From a virus, in IMG/VR virus record IMGVR_UViG_3300042352_000165, positions 1 through 22,346 of that record: a stretch of 22,346 nt of DNA; one strand, given 5' to 3'. Below, in pieces: positions 57 through 14,352 of the stretch. A program made the position numbers and the translations under genes. The notes under the pieces are model-generated. The model did not search any database, was not told the origin of the DNA, and saw only the letters and a list, made by a program, of their open reading frames with translations. Positions within the stretch are counted from its first letter, which is position 1. Each line of letters starts with the position of its first letter.

Positions 57-281
57 ATGAGTGGCAATAAAGACTTGAATCTATTAAAGAAACAAGCAGA
101 GAAACAAGGATGGGAGGTAGGCTTAACTAAGAGCGGGCATTACCGATGGATATCTCCTACAGGTAAGTCCGTGTTCTGTTCTAAGACCCCATCCGATTGG
201 CGTACAATACTTAACTTTAAAAGTGAATTGCGTTCTTTAGGGTTCATTGAAGTAACCAAACAAAAAGGAAAAAAGAAATGA
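57..281 (+). CDS. small HicA-like (dsRBD-fold) protein
   Basis: A 74-residue basic protein. The ATG at 57 is preceded by AAAGGAG with good spacing. The pattern of an N-terminal helix (LLKKQAEKQGW), a strand pair around SGHYRW (His28) with PTG, then SKTPSDWR and a final helix resembles the small double-stranded-RNA-binding-like fold of HicA mRNA interferases, where a Gly-x-His is catalytic. Related short proteins are common in actinobacteriophages. No HicB-type antitoxin is visible. Its stop overlaps the ATG of the WhiB gene (ATGA at 278-281), so the two are translationally coupled. It may equally be an RNA- or DNA-binding regulator without toxin activity. The gene is well supported; the function is tentative. 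Confidence 0.6.
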   Translation: MSGNKDLNLLKKQAEKQGWEVGLTKSGHYRWISPTGKSVFCSKTPSDWRTILNFKSELRSLGFIEVTKQKGKKK

Positions 282-505
282 TAAACATTGATGACGCAGC
301 CTGTGCTAAAGAAGACCCTGGGTTATTCTTTCCTGATGCTGGTAAAGGATACGCAGCTAAAGTAAAGGAAGCCAAACGCATCTGTGGTACCTGCCCTATT
401 GAATCTAAGTGCCTAGCTGAGGCTATCAAGAACAATGAAGAGTACGGCATCTGGGGTGGCACTACAGAAAATGAACGTAAGCAATTAATACTACGAATCA
501 AGTAA
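278..505 (+). CDS. WhiB-family transcriptional regulator (short)
   Basis: A 75-residue WhiB-like protein, a 4Fe-4S transcription factor that in actinobacteria works by binding the primary sigma factor. The four cluster cysteines are visible as C9, C36, C39 and C45 (C-x26-C-x2-C-x5-C), followed by the GIWGG turn at 57-61 and a short basic tail. The tail is too short for a full AT-hook, so it may act mainly through sigma-factor contact. AAGGA lies 8 nt before the start, and the ATG overlaps the preceding stop. Phage WhiB proteins can interfere with host WhiB regulators (known for mycobacteriophage TM4); whether this one does is inference. It lies on the strand opposite to the rest of the window. 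Confidence 0.93.
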   Translation: MINIDDAACAKEDPGLFFPDAGKGYAAKVKEAKRICGTCPIESKCLAEAIKNNEEYGIWGGTTENERKQLILRIK

Positions 506-556: not shown

Positions 557-763
557 CTAAGGCTTCTCTACGTTAATACGATGCATAGTAATGTTTTTTA
601 CTGCGCGTACATCTGAGTTTTGCCAAGTCCAGCATTGCCCGTCTTCGTCACTAAAGCAAACCCACTGAAGGTTATGCTCTGGTCCCATGTCAATCAAGAA
701 ATGGGCCAGGGCAGAACCTTTAGGTGTCTCTAGTGGCAAAGGCGGGTTCAACTGGATAATCAT
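557..763 (-). CDS. conserved phage protein downstream of the reductase
   Basis: A 68-residue acidic protein with no recognised domain. It has a Pro-rich start (PPLPLETPKG), then an ALAHFLIDMGPEH segment and a short aromatic strand (WVCFSDEDGQCWTW), and looks like a compact alpha/beta fold. Proteins of this pattern occur in actinobacteriophages, but I know no function for them. Its ATG shares one base with the reductase stop (TAATG at 761-765) and has AAGGA 9 nt upstream, so it is probably co-translated with the reductase. A role tied to nucleotide metabolism is only guilt by association. Confidence 0.8.
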   Translation of the reverse strand: MIIQLNPPLPLETPKGSALAHFLIDMGPEHNLQWVCFSDEDGQCWTWQNSDVRAVKNITMHRINVEKP

Positions 764-2808
764 TACTGATTGTCCTTAATCAACTTAATCTCGCAAGCGT
801 CAGTTGTGCAGTACGCTTCACCGATAGCCTCTGACCCCATACCAGCGTAAACACCAGCAAAGTCAATAGGGAACAACTGCATAGCATACTCGTCATATTC
901 GGCCTCACTAATCTGAGTGTAAGGCATCTGCGGATAAACAGTATTTCCCATTGGCAAGAACGACACAGTCTTAAGTTGACCATCGTGCATGTGCAGTACA
1001 GTCTCGACGTGGTCTGACTCTTTTTCTGCATCAAAGGTAACAGTTACAGACACAGAGTTGTCTGACCAATACCGTTGAGCAATTACCGCCAAGTTCATCT
1101 TTTCAAAGATGGTTACATCCTTTTCCGCACGCTCAGCAAGTGACTTGATAGGGAAGAACACTACAGAGGTAGTGTCGGGAGATTCAGACGCAGGCTCAAC
1201 ACGGTAGTTAGCCATCTTGAACAGAGGCAACATAGCATCGTTGTTAGCAAAACGAATTGCACGAAGGAAGTACTTACCGCCAGCAGTCCAGTGAACGCCA
1301 GGCGATTCACCTGCAAGAATGCTTACAGTGCCAGAAGGCTTCACAGTAGTCATCTTTACAGACTCGCGAATACCTAGCCACTCAGAGTATGACACGTCAT
1401 ACTTCTTTACAGTTGCGTATCCTTCATTCATCCAAGTACGAAGCTCTGGCAATCCTTTAAGGTCAGCAAAGTTTGCCACACCCGACACCGAGGTACCAAT
1501 GCGACGATTGCGCTGCATGATTGCGTTAGTCTCTTCCCAATGCGTAGGGAGTAGTGTAACTGTTTTGGCATAAAGGTATGCGAACTTCAACGTACGCTTG
1601 AAATCTTCGAGGGAGTCGTGTCGATTCAGGTAGGTTTCTACTAGTGTACACATCTCAAAAGATTCCAACGACTGCTCCGCGCAAGGGTTGTATCCTACAA
1701 CGCGGTGGTCCTTGTTGTTAGGCTCGTCAATCAAACGCCCATACTTGCGGCTCATATCCATCCAGATAACTCCAGGCTCACCATTACGGACAATACCATC
1801 CACAATAGGACTGAAATCTGTTCCTACAGATACTTCTACCGAGTTATTGGACATCCATGCCCAACCAGGGGCCTCTGCATCATACGAGTTGCGCTCAGGA
1901 AAACGCTCGGCGTTCTTCAGATTAAGGAAATCCTGGTCGTCAATTCGACCAATCAACAACTCTGCCGAACGGCGCACGTTACCGCTTACAACACAAACAC
2001 CAATCAGGTTACCGATGTCTGCGATATCCTTGCGTGTTACCTGCTCGCCCTTACGACCATCAAACATTTTGCGGATGGCACCGTGCAACTTAAACAATGG
2101 CTCTGGTCCCGACGCTGTTCCACCAAATGTTTTAATTGGTGTTCCATACGGGCGAATCTGGTCGTAATTAAATTCCAAAATCTTTTGTTCTGGTTTCAAA
2201 TACGAGTTAATCAACGCTACCGTTGACTCCTGCCATCCTTCACGGGTGTCTGGAATATCATACTCCTGAAATCCTGACGGAGCGTAGATTTCAAATCCTT
2301 TATCCGCTCCTTTATCGTCAAATCCGACGCCCACACCCAACATCGATGCTTCCATCAAAAACGCAAATGGCTTCGCAGGGTTCTGTTTGGTCATTTCGTT
2401 TGTGCTAACGAACGCACAGTTCTGCAACGCTGCACTGTTCTTCTGTTCGTTAACAATAGGTGTGCCCATAACCCACAACCCACGACCTGGCGGTGTCCAC
2501 TTCAGCTGGAATAGTCTTTCGAACGCTTCCTTTGCGCTCGCTGCTGCTTTGGCATCGCTCCACGGCAAACGGTTTGCTTTGGCATGGTCCTTCTGCAACG
2601 AATACATACCGTTGATTACACGCTCACAAACGTCTGACCATGTTTCTTTTGTTCCGTCTTCTTTCAAACGGCTGTACGTGCGTAGGAATGTAATTTCACC
2701 TACTGAGTTTCCCGCAACGTCGGTGTAACCAAATGGGGCTTTTTTGTCCCTGTATCCTGCTACAAAATCTTCTGCTAAACGAAATGAAAAATTAGTCATA
2801 ACCACCAT
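763..2808 (-). CDS. nrdJ: adenosylcobalamin-dependent ribonucleoside-triphosphate reductase (class II)
   Basis: Reduces ribonucleoside triphosphates to deoxynucleotides, using a thiyl radical generated from coenzyme B12. The catalytic set of the monomeric Lactobacillus leichmannii enzyme can be traced: C131 (in QNCAF) and C387 as the redox pair, C376-x-E378 in NPCAE as the radical cysteine and its glutamate, with the C376-x10-C387 spacing kept. The PSGTVSILAGESPGVH segment lies at 491-506, and the swinging tail pair C667-x4-C672 is near the C-terminus. At 681 residues it is somewhat shorter than the roughly 740-residue reference. The start is ambiguous: ATG 2808 lacks a clear ribosome-binding site, and an in-frame ATG at 2799 follows GGTGG. 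It needs no second subunit or oxygen, but depends on host cobalamin. Confidence 0.93.
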   Translation of the reverse strand: MVVMTNFSFRLAEDFVAGYRDKKAPFGYTDVAGNSVGEITFLRTYSRLKEDGTKETWSDVCERVINGMYSLQKDHAKANRLPWSDAKAAASAKEAFERLFQLKWTPPGRGLWVMGTPIVNEQKNSAALQNCAFVSTNEMTKQNPAKPFAFLMEASMLGVGVGFDDKGADKGFEIYAPSGFQEYDIPDTREGWQESTVALINSYLKPEQKILEFNYDQIRPYGTPIKTFGGTASGPEPLFKLHGAIRKMFDGRKGEQVTRKDIADIGNLIGVCVVSGNVRRSAELLIGRIDDQDFLNLKNAERFPERNSYDAEAPGWAWMSNNSVEVSVGTDFSPIVDGIVRNGEPGVIWMDMSRKYGRLIDEPNNKDHRVVGYNPCAEQSLESFEMCTLVETYLNRHDSLEDFKRTLKFAYLYAKTVTLLPTHWEETNAIMQRNRRIGTSVSGVANFADLKGLPELRTWMNEGYATVKKYDVSYSEWLGIRESVKMTTVKPSGTVSILAGESPGVHWTAGGKYFLRAIRFANNDAMLPLFKMANYRVEPASESPDTTSVVFFPIKSLAERAEKDVTIFEKMNLAVIAQRYWSDNSVSVTVTFDAEKESDHVETVLHMHDGQLKTVSFLPMGNTVYPQMPYTQISEAEYDEYAMQLFPIDFAGVYAGMGSEAIGEAYCTTDACEIKLIKDNQ

Positions 2809-2960: not shown

Positions 2961-4457
2961 CTACTTTTCCAACGAATCACGGATAATCACGGTGGTTTGT
3001 TCCTCGTTTAATGGCTTTTCCATCTCCTTTAGCGCCTGTGCTCGGTCACCAAAAATGGCGCTCAACACTCCTCCCGACGCTTGGCGGCTAGCGGTAATCT
3101 GAACAAACTCTTTACTGCTCTCTAGGTCCTTTACGGATGCCACCAACTTCATCAATCGGTCCATCTCTTGGGATGTATTTGGGTCTGCGTAACCGCCGTT
3201 CAATTCTTCTGCAAACCGCATAAATGCTACTCTCTGGCCTTGCATCTCAATGATTGCGGTCAACAATCCCTTCAACTGGTCCTTCGTCTTAACCTCGATT
3301 GGGAGGTTAAACGCACACGTGTTTGCGGGCTTGAATGCTGGGCAATTTGCGGCTACAAAACAGGTGTCGCACTGTCTTAAACTGCCACTATTGGACTGTA
3401 CAACGGGTACTTCTTTCAGTACATCACGACCGTCTTCCTGCTCTACTACGGTCTTCATTTGGTACCCCAAAACAGGCATAGAAATGACCTCATTTGGGTC
3501 TCTTTGGACTACTTCTGCGCGTTCAACTTTCCGCACTTCGGTACCGCTGTTATTAGAAAGGTACCCGTCCATTTCCATCAAACCTGTGTATAGGGTGTCA
3601 TCACTGTTATCAGATACTTTGTCTCCAATAATCAGTTTTAGGTCTGGTTTGTCCTTGTCCATTTTGCTCTCTAACTGTAAATACGACCACACTGCGACCT
3701 TCGTCGACTCTAACGTGTCGTCTCCAATAAACTTACTGAAATCTAATCCTGCCTTTTCTACGGTATTTTTATACCGTAAACGGGCTTGGTCCTTCATCTT
3801 TTTTGGGTATCTTACTAACTTTGAACCATCCCAAATGATGGTTTCTCCACGCCTCATCGGTGACAACCACGACAACGTACTGGCAGTTTCAAACGGAATC
3901 TGCCTCAAATTGTCAGGTTTAGCTGTGGCTAATGCGTGAAACTTTGTTCCGTTAACTCGTTGTAGGTTTCTAATTGTTCCCGACAAATTAGTTACGGACT
4001 CAATTGTATCTCCTGGAATTGCCACGTTTTCGTACTCGGATGACCACTCACGCAACAACGCCTGGTTGTACGTCCCGTTCCAAACAACCCACATCTTTGG
4101 GTCGTTTTCAAACGCTGCTCGCTGGTTTTTAATCCAGTTTAATCCTAAAACCTGTGAATCAAACTCAACCCAACCTTCAATTCGGTCGTAATTTAGTGCG
4201 ATAAACTCTTCGTAATCTGCGGCGTAGTTCTCTAGTTCACTGATTGACCACCCAGCTTTGTCCGCTTGTACGGAACCTGAATCAACCCACACCTTCATCT
4301 CTGGTAGGAAATGCTCTCCTACTAAATACGCTTTGGTCTTTGGCAACCCACGTTTGCGTAGGCCCCAATACGACAACATAACGTTGTTCGCCCCTGCTCG
4401 CTCCAACAACGTGCGATTGCTTGGTACTTCTACTCCTCCAAACAGAATGCTACTCAA
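2961..4457 (-). CDS. two-domain protein: TGT/DpdA-like barrel plus Cys-cluster domain
   Basis: A 498-residue protein. Residues about 1-260 resemble the TIM-barrel of tRNA-guanine transglycosylases and phage DNA 7-deazaguanine transglycosylases (DpdA): WVDSGS at 57-62 matches the DSGG loop, VEFD at 97-100 is a plausible strand end, and FHALATAKPDNLRQIPF at 173-189 resembles the GxGxP segment. The following ETASTLSW (190-197) has Ala where related proteins usually carry an Asp-containing SVDSTSW-type motif. A separate C-terminal domain has C363-x2-C366-x5-C372-x8-C381, then helices ending in a QASGGVLSAIFG segment. The start is TTG, overlapping the previous gene by 8 nt, with GAGG 9 nt upstream. 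The enzyme assignment rests on motif resemblance by eye. It could be a catalytically altered relative or an unrelated phage family. Confidence 0.45.
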   Translation of the reverse strand: MSSILFGGVEVPSNRTLLERAGANNVMLSYWGLRKRGLPKTKAYLVGEHFLPEMKVWVDSGSVQADKAGWSISELENYAADYEEFIALNYDRIEGWVEFDSQVLGLNWIKNQRAAFENDPKMWVVWNGTYNQALLREWSSEYENVAIPGDTIESVTNLSGTIRNLQRVNGTKFHALATAKPDNLRQIPFETASTLSWLSPMRRGETIIWDGSKLVRYPKKMKDQARLRYKNTVEKAGLDFSKFIGDDTLESTKVAVWSYLQLESKMDKDKPDLKLIIGDKVSDNSDDTLYTGLMEMDGYLSNNSGTEVRKVERAEVVQRDPNEVISMPVLGYQMKTVVEQEDGRDVLKEVPVVQSNSGSLRQCDTCFVAANCPAFKPANTCAFNLPIEVKTKDQLKGLLTAIIEMQGQRVAFMRFAEELNGGYADPNTSQEMDRLMKLVASVKDLESSKEFVQITASRQASGGVLSAIFGDRAQALKEMEKPLNEEQTTVIIRDSLEK

Positions 4458-5928: not shown

Positions 5929-6204
5929 TTATGCAGGTTCCTGTGGTGTAATCCCGCGTTCTTTTAGCTTTTCCTTAACTACATCGGGGATTGCTGGTGT
6001 AGTAGGATTCAACGCGTTAACCAACCGCTCAATGAGCATCTGCGCGTCAATTTCCTTGAGGATAGCTTGCAACGTGGTGTACACATCAAACGTTGTTGCC
6101 TGGCGTTTTGCTGGAAATACTTCACCAGTCTGCTCCAAACTTACGGAGAATGTTCCGTCAGTATTGCATACTACAGTGAAAACTGTTTCGATTTCTTTTT
6201 CCAT
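5929..6204 (-). CDS. hypothetical protein (91 aa)
   Basis: Unrecognised acidic protein. The first 30 residues look like a beta hairpin (EIETVFTVVCNTDGTFSVSLE), followed by a long predicted helix (VYTTLQAILKEIDAQMLIERLV) and a Pro-rich, flexible C-terminus. A strong AGGAG lies 6 nt before the ATG, in a leader (GGAGCAAATATG) identical to that of the gene starting at 7128. It is 9 nt downstream of the 41-residue basic protein and ahead of the nucleotidyltransferase-like gene. Confidence 0.75.
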   Translation of the reverse strand: MEKEIETVFTVVCNTDGTFSVSLEQTGEVFPAKRQATTFDVYTTLQAILKEIDAQMLIERLVNALNPTTPAIPDVVKEKLKERGITPQEPA

Positions 6205-6346: not shown

Positions 6347-6904
6347 TTAATCGTACATTCCCATAATTTGCCTACGACGCTGAACAACCACTGAGTGGTA
6401 CGGACAGAAGTGGCAGGTAAACACCTTTGGTCCTTCTAGATGTTCAGGTTTTGGTAAACCTAAATCGCCACGTTCCTTTGCCGTGTCTGGCAACAGGCGT
6501 TTAGAAGGGGACTCGTAATCATCACAGTTCACCTTTGGCTGGTTGTGCCTTGACCAACAATCCATTGCGTCTTCAGAAAACTGCATCTTAGTCTCATAGA
6601 AGTTCTTCTCAGGAGAGATTTCATCTAGACCACGTGAGCCTCCCTGACGCAGCTGTTCAAGGATTTCTGCTTTGTCTTTACCGTTTGCCCATACTTTAAC
6701 TGGTACTTTAAACAGTTTACCCTTGTGTTCCTCACCAGAAGGAAACTTGTGCTTCTCTAGTGAGATTTCCAACAGATAATCAAAGTTTGATGGGCCTTCG
6801 TAGTCTGGTAGTTCTTCAATTGTTTCACACACCAGACACACGAGTAGACGGATTACTGGTCCGTCAATAGGTTTGCTGCCAATTACTGGCCTAAATTCTG
6901 TCAT
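6347..6904 (-). CDS. conserved phage protein with two CxxC pairs
   Basis: A 185-residue protein of unknown function. C23-x2-C26 lies in a hydrophobic strand near the N-terminus (LLVCLVCETIEEL), and C164-x2-C167 near the C-terminus (FTCHFCPYHS); C116 and C127 lie between. The two pairs could form one zinc site or, less likely, an Fe-S site. The C-terminus is basic (VVVQRRRQIMGMYD). The ATG shares one base with the preceding stop (TAATG at 6902-6906). A nucleic-acid-related role would fit but is not shown. Confidence 0.75.
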   Translation of the reverse strand: MTEFRPVIGSKPIDGPVIRLLVCLVCETIEELPDYEGPSNFDYLLEISLEKHKFPSGEEHKGKLFKVPVKVWANGKDKAEILEQLRQGGSRGLDEISPEKNFYETKMQFSEDAMDCWSRHNQPKVNCDDYESPSKRLLPDTAKERGDLGLPKPEHLEGPKVFTCHFCPYHSVVVQRRRQIMGMYD

Positions 6905-14058: not shown

Positions 14059-14352
14059 TTAGCTCGCTGAAATTGCAAACACAATAGCCGAAATCTCGCC
14101 GTCGCGTGATTCGATTGTGGTAAACCCAGGCTTGCAAGTAAGGTCTAGACCTCTAGGAGCAACGTAACCTCTGGCGATTGCCAAAGCTTTTACTGCCTGG
14201 TTTACTGCTCCTGCACCAACGGCACGTAGCTTTACAGCTCTGTTGTCGTAGATAGCATGAGCAATTGCGGATGCGACGGATTGTGGATTAGAACCTGCAC
14301 TAACACGAAGAAATGGTTCTTCGGTCGAGGGTAGGATGATTTCTTCACTCAT
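14059..14352 (-). CDS. spoVS: SpoVS-family (Alba-like) protein
   Basis: A 97-residue protein closely matching Bacillus SpoVS along most of its length. Residues 15-85 carry LRVSAGSNPQSVA, then RAVGAGAVNQAVKALAIARG and YVAPRGLDLTCKPGF, which correspond one-to-one with the recalled SpoVS core. A ten-residue acidic N-terminal extension precedes it. SpoVS proteins are small Alba-like dimers thought to bind nucleic acid, and affect septation and sporulation in Bacillus; the molecular role in phages is unknown. AAGGA lies 6 nt before the ATG. It is separated from the resolvase by 57 nt, so it could have its own promoter and may modulate DNA structure or expression of the following block. Confidence 0.9.
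   Translation of the reverse strand: MSEEIILPSTEEPFLRVSAGSNPQSVASAIAHAIYDNRAVKLRAVGAGAVNQAVKALAIARGYVAPRGLDLTCKPGFTTIESRDGEISAIVFAISAS

Follow-up and report, generated by a model that had tools for sequence, protein, structure and literature searches.

A DpdA-type barrel lacking the catalytic aspartate, fused to a Cys4/helical domain in actinophages: a candidate non-catalytic DNA-binding protein

The DpdA proteins of phages, of which that of Enterobacteria phage 9g is the type considered here (Hutinet et al. 2019, PMC6884629), are defined by a nucleophilic Asp within a '-DSxSW-' segment. This residue, the Asp of the DSG motif, a second-strand Asp and a His are all invariant in the seven DpdAs aligned in the present work. 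In public annotation the homologue in Streptomyces phage BRock is named a 'queuine tRNA-ribosyltransferase' and that in GiJojo a 'dpdA-like tRNA-guanine transglycosylase', which would mean that these phages carry modified DNA. In the literature consulted, for the most part titles and abstracts, no DpdA is described as inactive or as fused. A second family of relevance is that annotated as the small terminase TerS (PHROG 6902 / 16015), found in 117 Gordonia, Rhodococcus and Tsukamurella phages. Among the loci read, its gene lies immediately upstream of, or overlaps, that for TerL wherever the latter is included (TIN2, Demosthenes, ReqiDocB7, Reynauld, GMA3, Trogglehumper, PatrickStar and Jumbo). 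In the Gordonia phages the TerS label was given by position, in some cases with weak homology, and not by experiment (PMC4524720).

The gene described here lies in a window of 22,346 nt, a 22 kb fragment of a virus record, and encodes a predicted barrel of the tRNA-guanine transglycosylase (TGT)/DpdA type joined through a linker to a Cys4/helical domain (Table 1). Many of its relatives in IMG/VR are contigs of 75-98 kb and include contractile-tailed phages related to BRock, three relatives being about 50% identical to BRock in TerL, 55% in the portal and 60% in the major capsid protein.

Table 1. Features of the fused gene and its neighbours, with positions in the window.
Feature	Positions	Strand	Basis or remark
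Fused protein CDS	2961..4457	-	498 aa, from a TTG codon at 4457; homologues agree in start position and length
Predicted TGT/DpdA-type TIM barrel, residues 1-268	3654..4457	-	AF2, structural alignment, PHROG 887
D59, counterpart of the TGT/DpdA DSG Asp	4281..4283	-	225-row alignment
E98-F99-D100; D100 the base-recognition Asp	4158..4166	-	Alignment
ETASTLSW, residues 190-197; S193 (3879-3881) at the place of the DpdA nucleophilic Asp	3867..3890	-	hhalign and MAFFT alignments
RYPKKMKDQAR, residues 216-226, near-invariant basic motif after the barrel	3780..3812	-	Alignment; putative nucleic-acid binding
Variable linker, residues 269-357	3387..3653	-	Low pLDDT; mean column identity 0.61
C363-x2-C366-x5-C372-x8-C381, putative Zn or Fe-S site	3315..3371	-	Invariant in 225/225
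Cys4 and predicted helical hairpin (392-420, 426-447), residues 358-470	3048..3386	-	AF2, conservation; common to PHROG 6902
Upstream HAD-like (DxDGVL) gene, 161 aa	4450..4935	-	8-nt overlap with the start of the target
Nucleotidyltransferase (NTase)-like gene, 291 aa	5037..5912	-	101 nt upstream of the HAD-like gene, no overlap
91-aa small protein	5929..6204	-	Conserved in the freshwater group
185-aa protein with CxxC pairs	6347..6904	-	Conserved member of the target's gene run

Fold and active site of the barrel

The target aligns over its whole length with 225 homologous rows, a set that includes redundant copies of some contigs (66 rows without near-copies). PHROG 887 ('queuine tRNA-ribosyltransferase') matches the target along its whole length (E 8e-57) and also matches the DpdA of phage 9g over the barrel (E 2e-98), while hhalign of the target against a profile of the seven DpdAs gave an E-value of 1.9e-10. 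Searches of Pfam and NCBIfam with the target returned no confident match, and a direct sequence search of the PDB no meaningful one. The AF2 model, built from 66 homologues, has a pLDDT of about 91 for residues 1-268 and low values beyond. When PDB matches were ranked by Foldseek E-value generic TIM barrels came first, with structural re-alignment (VIA-align) moving TGTs to the top such that they occupied all 50 top rows, the best being the archaeosine TGT 1iq8_A (Z 17.4, rmsd 3.6 A, 258 residues). On the predicted structure residues 1-268 are a TGT/DpdA barrel, with the TGT-type TIM barrel of that superfamily. This bears out a preliminary description of the locus, which gave no strand (the ORF is on the minus strand) and in which the N-terminal half was read as TGT/DpdA-like, with DSGS at residues 59-62 and FHALATAKP at 173-181; the profile matches and the predicted fold were the two points on which that reading could have failed, and both uphold it.

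The alignment of the active site is unambiguous (target 'FHALATAKPDNLRQIPFETASTLSWLSP', BRock 'LHGMSMTKPDIMQAVPWESVSSTSWLSP', 9g 'VHGFGITSRPLMERYPWYSCDSSSWIQS') and the nucleophilic Asp that defines DpdA is absent from the target, which has Ser193 in its place. The alteration of this segment to ETASTLSW, already remarked in the preliminary description, extends across the family, with the nucleophile column holding Ser in 221 of the 225 homologues, Thr in three, Ala in one and never Asp. Ala is found at this position in the Terracoccus prophage (L268) and in GiJojo, which stands outside the 225-row set. In DpdA the DSG Asp is the general acid/base; its column (D59) is Asp in 91 rows, Glu in 123, His in eight and Ser in three, while that of the second Asp (D100) is Asp in 216, Asn in six and Thr in three; H174, which aligns with the invariant DpdA His (His196 of the 9g-type family), is kept in 220. 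Four representatives (L229, L199, L226 and L170) have none of the three acids and keep the full fused architecture. In a maximum-likelihood tree the fused Asp-less forms split from the Asp-bearing DpdAs with support of 100/99; long branches meet in this tree, which makes its rooting and the exact sister group provisional.

The DSG motif at residues 59-61 is replaced by HPG, HAG or SPG in L229, L199, L226, L170, L233, L234, L218 and L225, and the conservation of the rest of the protein in this subclade is a pattern pointing to a remodelled pocket. Ser193 was considered as a general replacement nucleophile and rejected, the residue being Ala in L172 and GiJojo; because the position is Ala in two lineages, Ser is not a nucleophile in general.

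A different feature of the former active-site strand is Glu98, which is invariant in 225/225 homologues, lies two residues before D100 on the same strand and is found in none of the seven aligned DpdAs, hinting at a retained function of the pocket. It is the only obvious candidate residue were the protein an active enzyme of altered chemistry, carrying out base exchange, base removal or another glycosyl transfer, and the retention of H174 and D100 in most homologues and of a conserved barrel (mean column identity 0.71) would fit such an enzyme. Set against this, the nucleophile position is Ser, Thr or Ala, D59 has become Glu, His or Ser in 134 of the 225 rows, D100 is lost in nine, the H-P-G subclade keeps the fused architecture with some members lacking any of the three acids, preQ0 genes are absent (see below) and residues 358-470, at a mean column identity of 0.81, are more conserved than the barrel itself, such that altered chemistry is considered improbable.

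preQ0 genes and the two-gene arrangement

QueD and QueE are absent from 25/25 fused-type genomes and QueC from 23/23 tested; the Asp and the pathway that would supply the enzyme are thus missing together. Phage singleton DpdAs without preQ0 genes are known (PMC6884629) and, together with membership of PHROG 887, would allow for an active 7-deazaguanine DNA transglycosylase that uses preQ0 supplied by the host, as the public annotation implies. That reading is very hard to sustain, with the catalytic Asp absent from every homologue and no second, Asp-bearing copy in the same genomes. A second active DpdA per genome, forming a hetero-dimer as in eukaryotic TGT, was likewise rejected as there is a single phrog_887 gene in each of the 25 fused-type genomes. 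With a defining feature of DpdA looked for and absent, the target does not qualify as a functional DpdA, and it very probably has no transglycosylase activity. The preliminary description had left the choice between an inactive relative put to another use and an enzyme with a different nucleophile. The former is favoured because Asp never occupies the nucleophile position, two lineages have Ala there, a subclade is without the acid/base and base-recognition Asps and no preQ0 genes are present, with the latter now resting on the invariant Glu98.

In Bacteroidota-type phages the barrel and Cys4 halves are separate adjacent genes and the barrel keeps the catalytic Asp. In Bacteroides phage BS162P1, gp87 is the barrel ('SVDSVTW') and gp88 the Cys4 protein, while in a second split-type contig (L235) the two genes overlap by 17 nt. 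These Asp-bearing loci have QueC-like and QueE-like genes alongside, with QueD elsewhere in the genome. The Cys cluster, which the preliminary description took as absent from such enzymes, is foreign to TGT itself, but in Bacteroidota-type phages it is encoded by the gene next to an Asp-bearing dpdA. The Cys4 gene of BS162P1 sits with dpdA and not with TerL, and judged from this locus the Cys4 domain may be a partner of DpdA rather than a packaging module. The likely ancestral state would be adjacent dpdA and cys4 genes, an arrangement that persists in those Bacteroidota-type phages that make preQ0; fusion into one polypeptide would have followed in the lineage of actinophages, with the nucleophilic Asp lost and the preQ0 genes absent, the direction of fusion being presumed.

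In BS162P1 the QueD-like gp17 (L256:8805-9341) is directly upstream of TerL (gp18), and QueC, DpdA, Cys4 and QueE lie about 50 kb from the QueD-like and TerL genes. In two split-type loci (L270:4992-7190 and L278:1521-3719) a long intein-like insertion is located exactly at the catalytic Asp motif of dpdA (FFSSDSS...TTWLGGVRYG); inteins often occupy such sites, which are under strong constraint.

The Cys4/helical domain, TerS and the gene neighbourhood

The fused CX2CX5CX8C cluster picked out in the preliminary description is not a chance arrangement, the four Cys being invariant in 225/225 homologues, and no other part of the protein is as well conserved as residues 358-470. When a profile of the C-terminal domain was compared with 4,510 ORFs it matched the Bacteroidota-type Cys4 genes (E 3e-19 to 2e-14), followed by the TerS of Gordonia phage Demosthenes and of Tsukamurella TIN2 (E about 1e-3), with the first unrelated ORF at E 0.74. 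Using hhalign against eight TerS sequences, 138 columns reaching to the C-terminus were aligned at E 4e-5, and the exact CX2CX5CX8C spacing is present in 13/13 compared proteins from outside the fused family (Bacteroidota-type and actinophage 'TerS'). With E-values of 1e-3 to 4e-5 the statistical link between the C-terminus of the target and TerS, as a match between sequences, is modest. A phrog_6902 match was obtained in 16/25 fused-type genomes and in each was the target's own C-terminus and nothing else, the scores being weak, with 3/14 control genomes also matching at that loose limit.

Compared by sequence, the N-terminal domain of actinophage TerS showed no detectable homology to that of the target. 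Between structures, the BFVD model of Jumbo TerS and the target match at E 4e-5, and a search in the opposite direction recovers the target family at 1.5e-3. The AF2 model of Jumbo TerS is of low confidence (pLDDT 53) and only generically TIM-barrel-like, its best PDB matches being ribulose-phosphate epimerases, with TGT at rank 8 (Z 6.4) and none above Z 7.0. In Trogglehumper (L276) a 199-aa 'TerS' next to TerL has the Cys4 domain only, suggesting that the C-terminal Cys4 part is the core of TerS. In Rhodococcus phage ReqiDocB7 (L272) the 'TerS' next to TerL is split into two genes.

Of the features of these small terminases, the target carries the C-terminal domain with CX2CX5CX8C and a predicted helical hairpin, and its gene is not directly upstream of TerL. 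The distance from the target to TerL is about 26-35 kb in three relatives of 94-98 kb, and the two small ORFs that come before TerL in the fused-type relatives belong to no family. Neither Terminase_2 nor Terminase_4 small subunits were found above the cut-off in 23 genomes, and the annotation lists no small terminase in those parts of BRock that were read, nor in GiJojo over its first 48 kb, the stretch with its terminase.

The target is tied by synteny to its neighbours, as had been anticipated: the run of 185-aa protein, HAD-like gene and target is kept in freshwater phages, Streptomyces phages and a Terracoccus prophage, while the NTase-like gene is syntenic in freshwater and Streptomyces phages and has no match at the Terracoccus prophage locus. 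The overlap between genes expected in the preliminary description was found for the HAD-like gene and not for the NTase-like gene. The labels 'HAD' and 'NTase' are readings of the sequences by eye, and neither protein has a convincing match to PHROG, Pfam or NCBIfam models.

The synteny raises the question of whether the protein is a non-catalytic nucleic-acid binder in some other pathway, acting with the HAD-like, NTase-like and 185-aa neighbours in nucleic-acid or nucleotide processing, host takeover or counter-defence, with the similarity to 'TerS' denoting a generic DNA-binding or oligomerisation domain. The maintenance of the gene run from freshwater phages to Streptomyces phages and the Terracoccus prophage, at a distance from TerL, is in keeping with this, as are the positional basis of the 'TerS' label in the related family (PMC4524720) and the Cys4 protein travelling with dpdA in preQ0 phages. 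Against it, the NTase-like gene has no counterpart in Terracoccus, no neighbour belongs to a recognisable enzyme family and in actinophages the C-terminal domain was otherwise found only directly upstream of TerL, such that this alternative is regarded as rather unlikely.

The Terracoccus locus (L268; Terracoccus sp. 273MFTsu3.1, NZ_KB911820.1), a bacterial genome contig with a fused-type homologue and syntenic neighbours, is probably a prophage and was the only match when a genome collection was searched with the target. A class II (B12-dependent) ribonucleotide reductase gene (window 763-2808, minus strand) follows the target directly in most of the freshwater relatives, whereas the Streptomyces loci compared have no match to it there. 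A HicA-like small protein (57-281, plus strand) overlaps a WhiB-like regulator (278-505, plus strand), the pair, which several relatives retain, running convergently to the operon of the target. A small protein that is SpoVS-like by eye (window 14059-14352, minus strand; also L084:4216-4519 and L235:1286-1567) is shared by these actinophages and Bacteroidota-type phages, lying in the latter near the queC/dpdA locus.

Proposed role and comparison with known systems

The best explanation, held with evenly balanced confidence, is that an inactivated DpdA barrel joined to a Cys4/helical domain makes a non-catalytic DNA-binding protein, most likely one for packaging. The barrel would probably still grip DNA in its groove through the conserved RYPKxMKxQAR, without base exchange, and the C-terminal domain would probably oligomerise the protein and/or dock it on a partner. 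Binding of DNA without chemistry is, on this evidence, probable. The most likely job would be DNA recognition for genome packaging, because the same domain is also carried by a protein whose gene directly precedes that for TerL in phages of Gordonia, Rhodococcus and Tsukamurella, and a small-terminase-like role in packaging is put forward tentatively. The further step, in which the inactivated barrel and Cys4/helical domain are the missing small terminase and actinophage 'TerS' derives from the same dead-barrel architecture, is possible though doubtful. To call the target an established small terminase would go too far, because its gene lies away from the position directly upstream of TerL and binding of the packaging site and of TerL is, for the target, putative.

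The absence of the catalytic residue across the whole family stands against the public annotation. Were the link to packaging true, a DNA-modifying enzyme would have been exapted as a DNA-recognition module, and the place of the missing small terminase would be filled for widespread freshwater and soil actinophages. Either way annotation by fold is set apart from function, and the Asp-bearing split and Asp-less fused forms provide a matched pair for comparison.

In comparison with tRNA-guanine transglycosylase (archaeosine TGT 1iq8 and the Z. mobilis TGT), the predicted fold of residues 1-268 is the same but the target is without the catalytic Asp, and its Cys4 site differs in spacing and position from the zinc site of TGT. 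With the DpdA of the Enterobacteria phage 9g type (PHROG 887; PMC6884629) the target shares the barrel fold, a DSG-type motif with the Asp variable among homologues, H174 as the conserved His, the 'YPW/IPF...S-[ST]-x-[ST]-W' segment and the basic stretch after the barrel, which is also present in the split-type DpdAs; it differs in having Ser, Thr or Ala for the nucleophilic Asp, the new Glu98, no preQ0 genes and an extra linker and Cys4/helical domain after the barrel. The target retains the conserved His, unlike the DpdA2 family of Vibrio phage nt-1, from which this residue is missing. The split DpdA and Cys4 pair (BS162P1 gp87/gp88, IMGVR 3300034102_001739 and MT835482) has the same two domains in the same order as the target, its members being the closest relatives of the barrel and of the Cys4 part beyond the fused family, but comprises two genes, with the catalytic Asp present, QueC and QueE flanking and QueD elsewhere. 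The actinophage 'TerS' (TIN2 gp1, Gordonia Jumbo gp6 and Demosthenes gp9) has identical Cys spacing, a helical hairpin and C-terminal helices and, as in the target, a large N-terminal domain in most members, but this domain has no detectable sequence similarity to DpdA and the gene directly precedes TerL.
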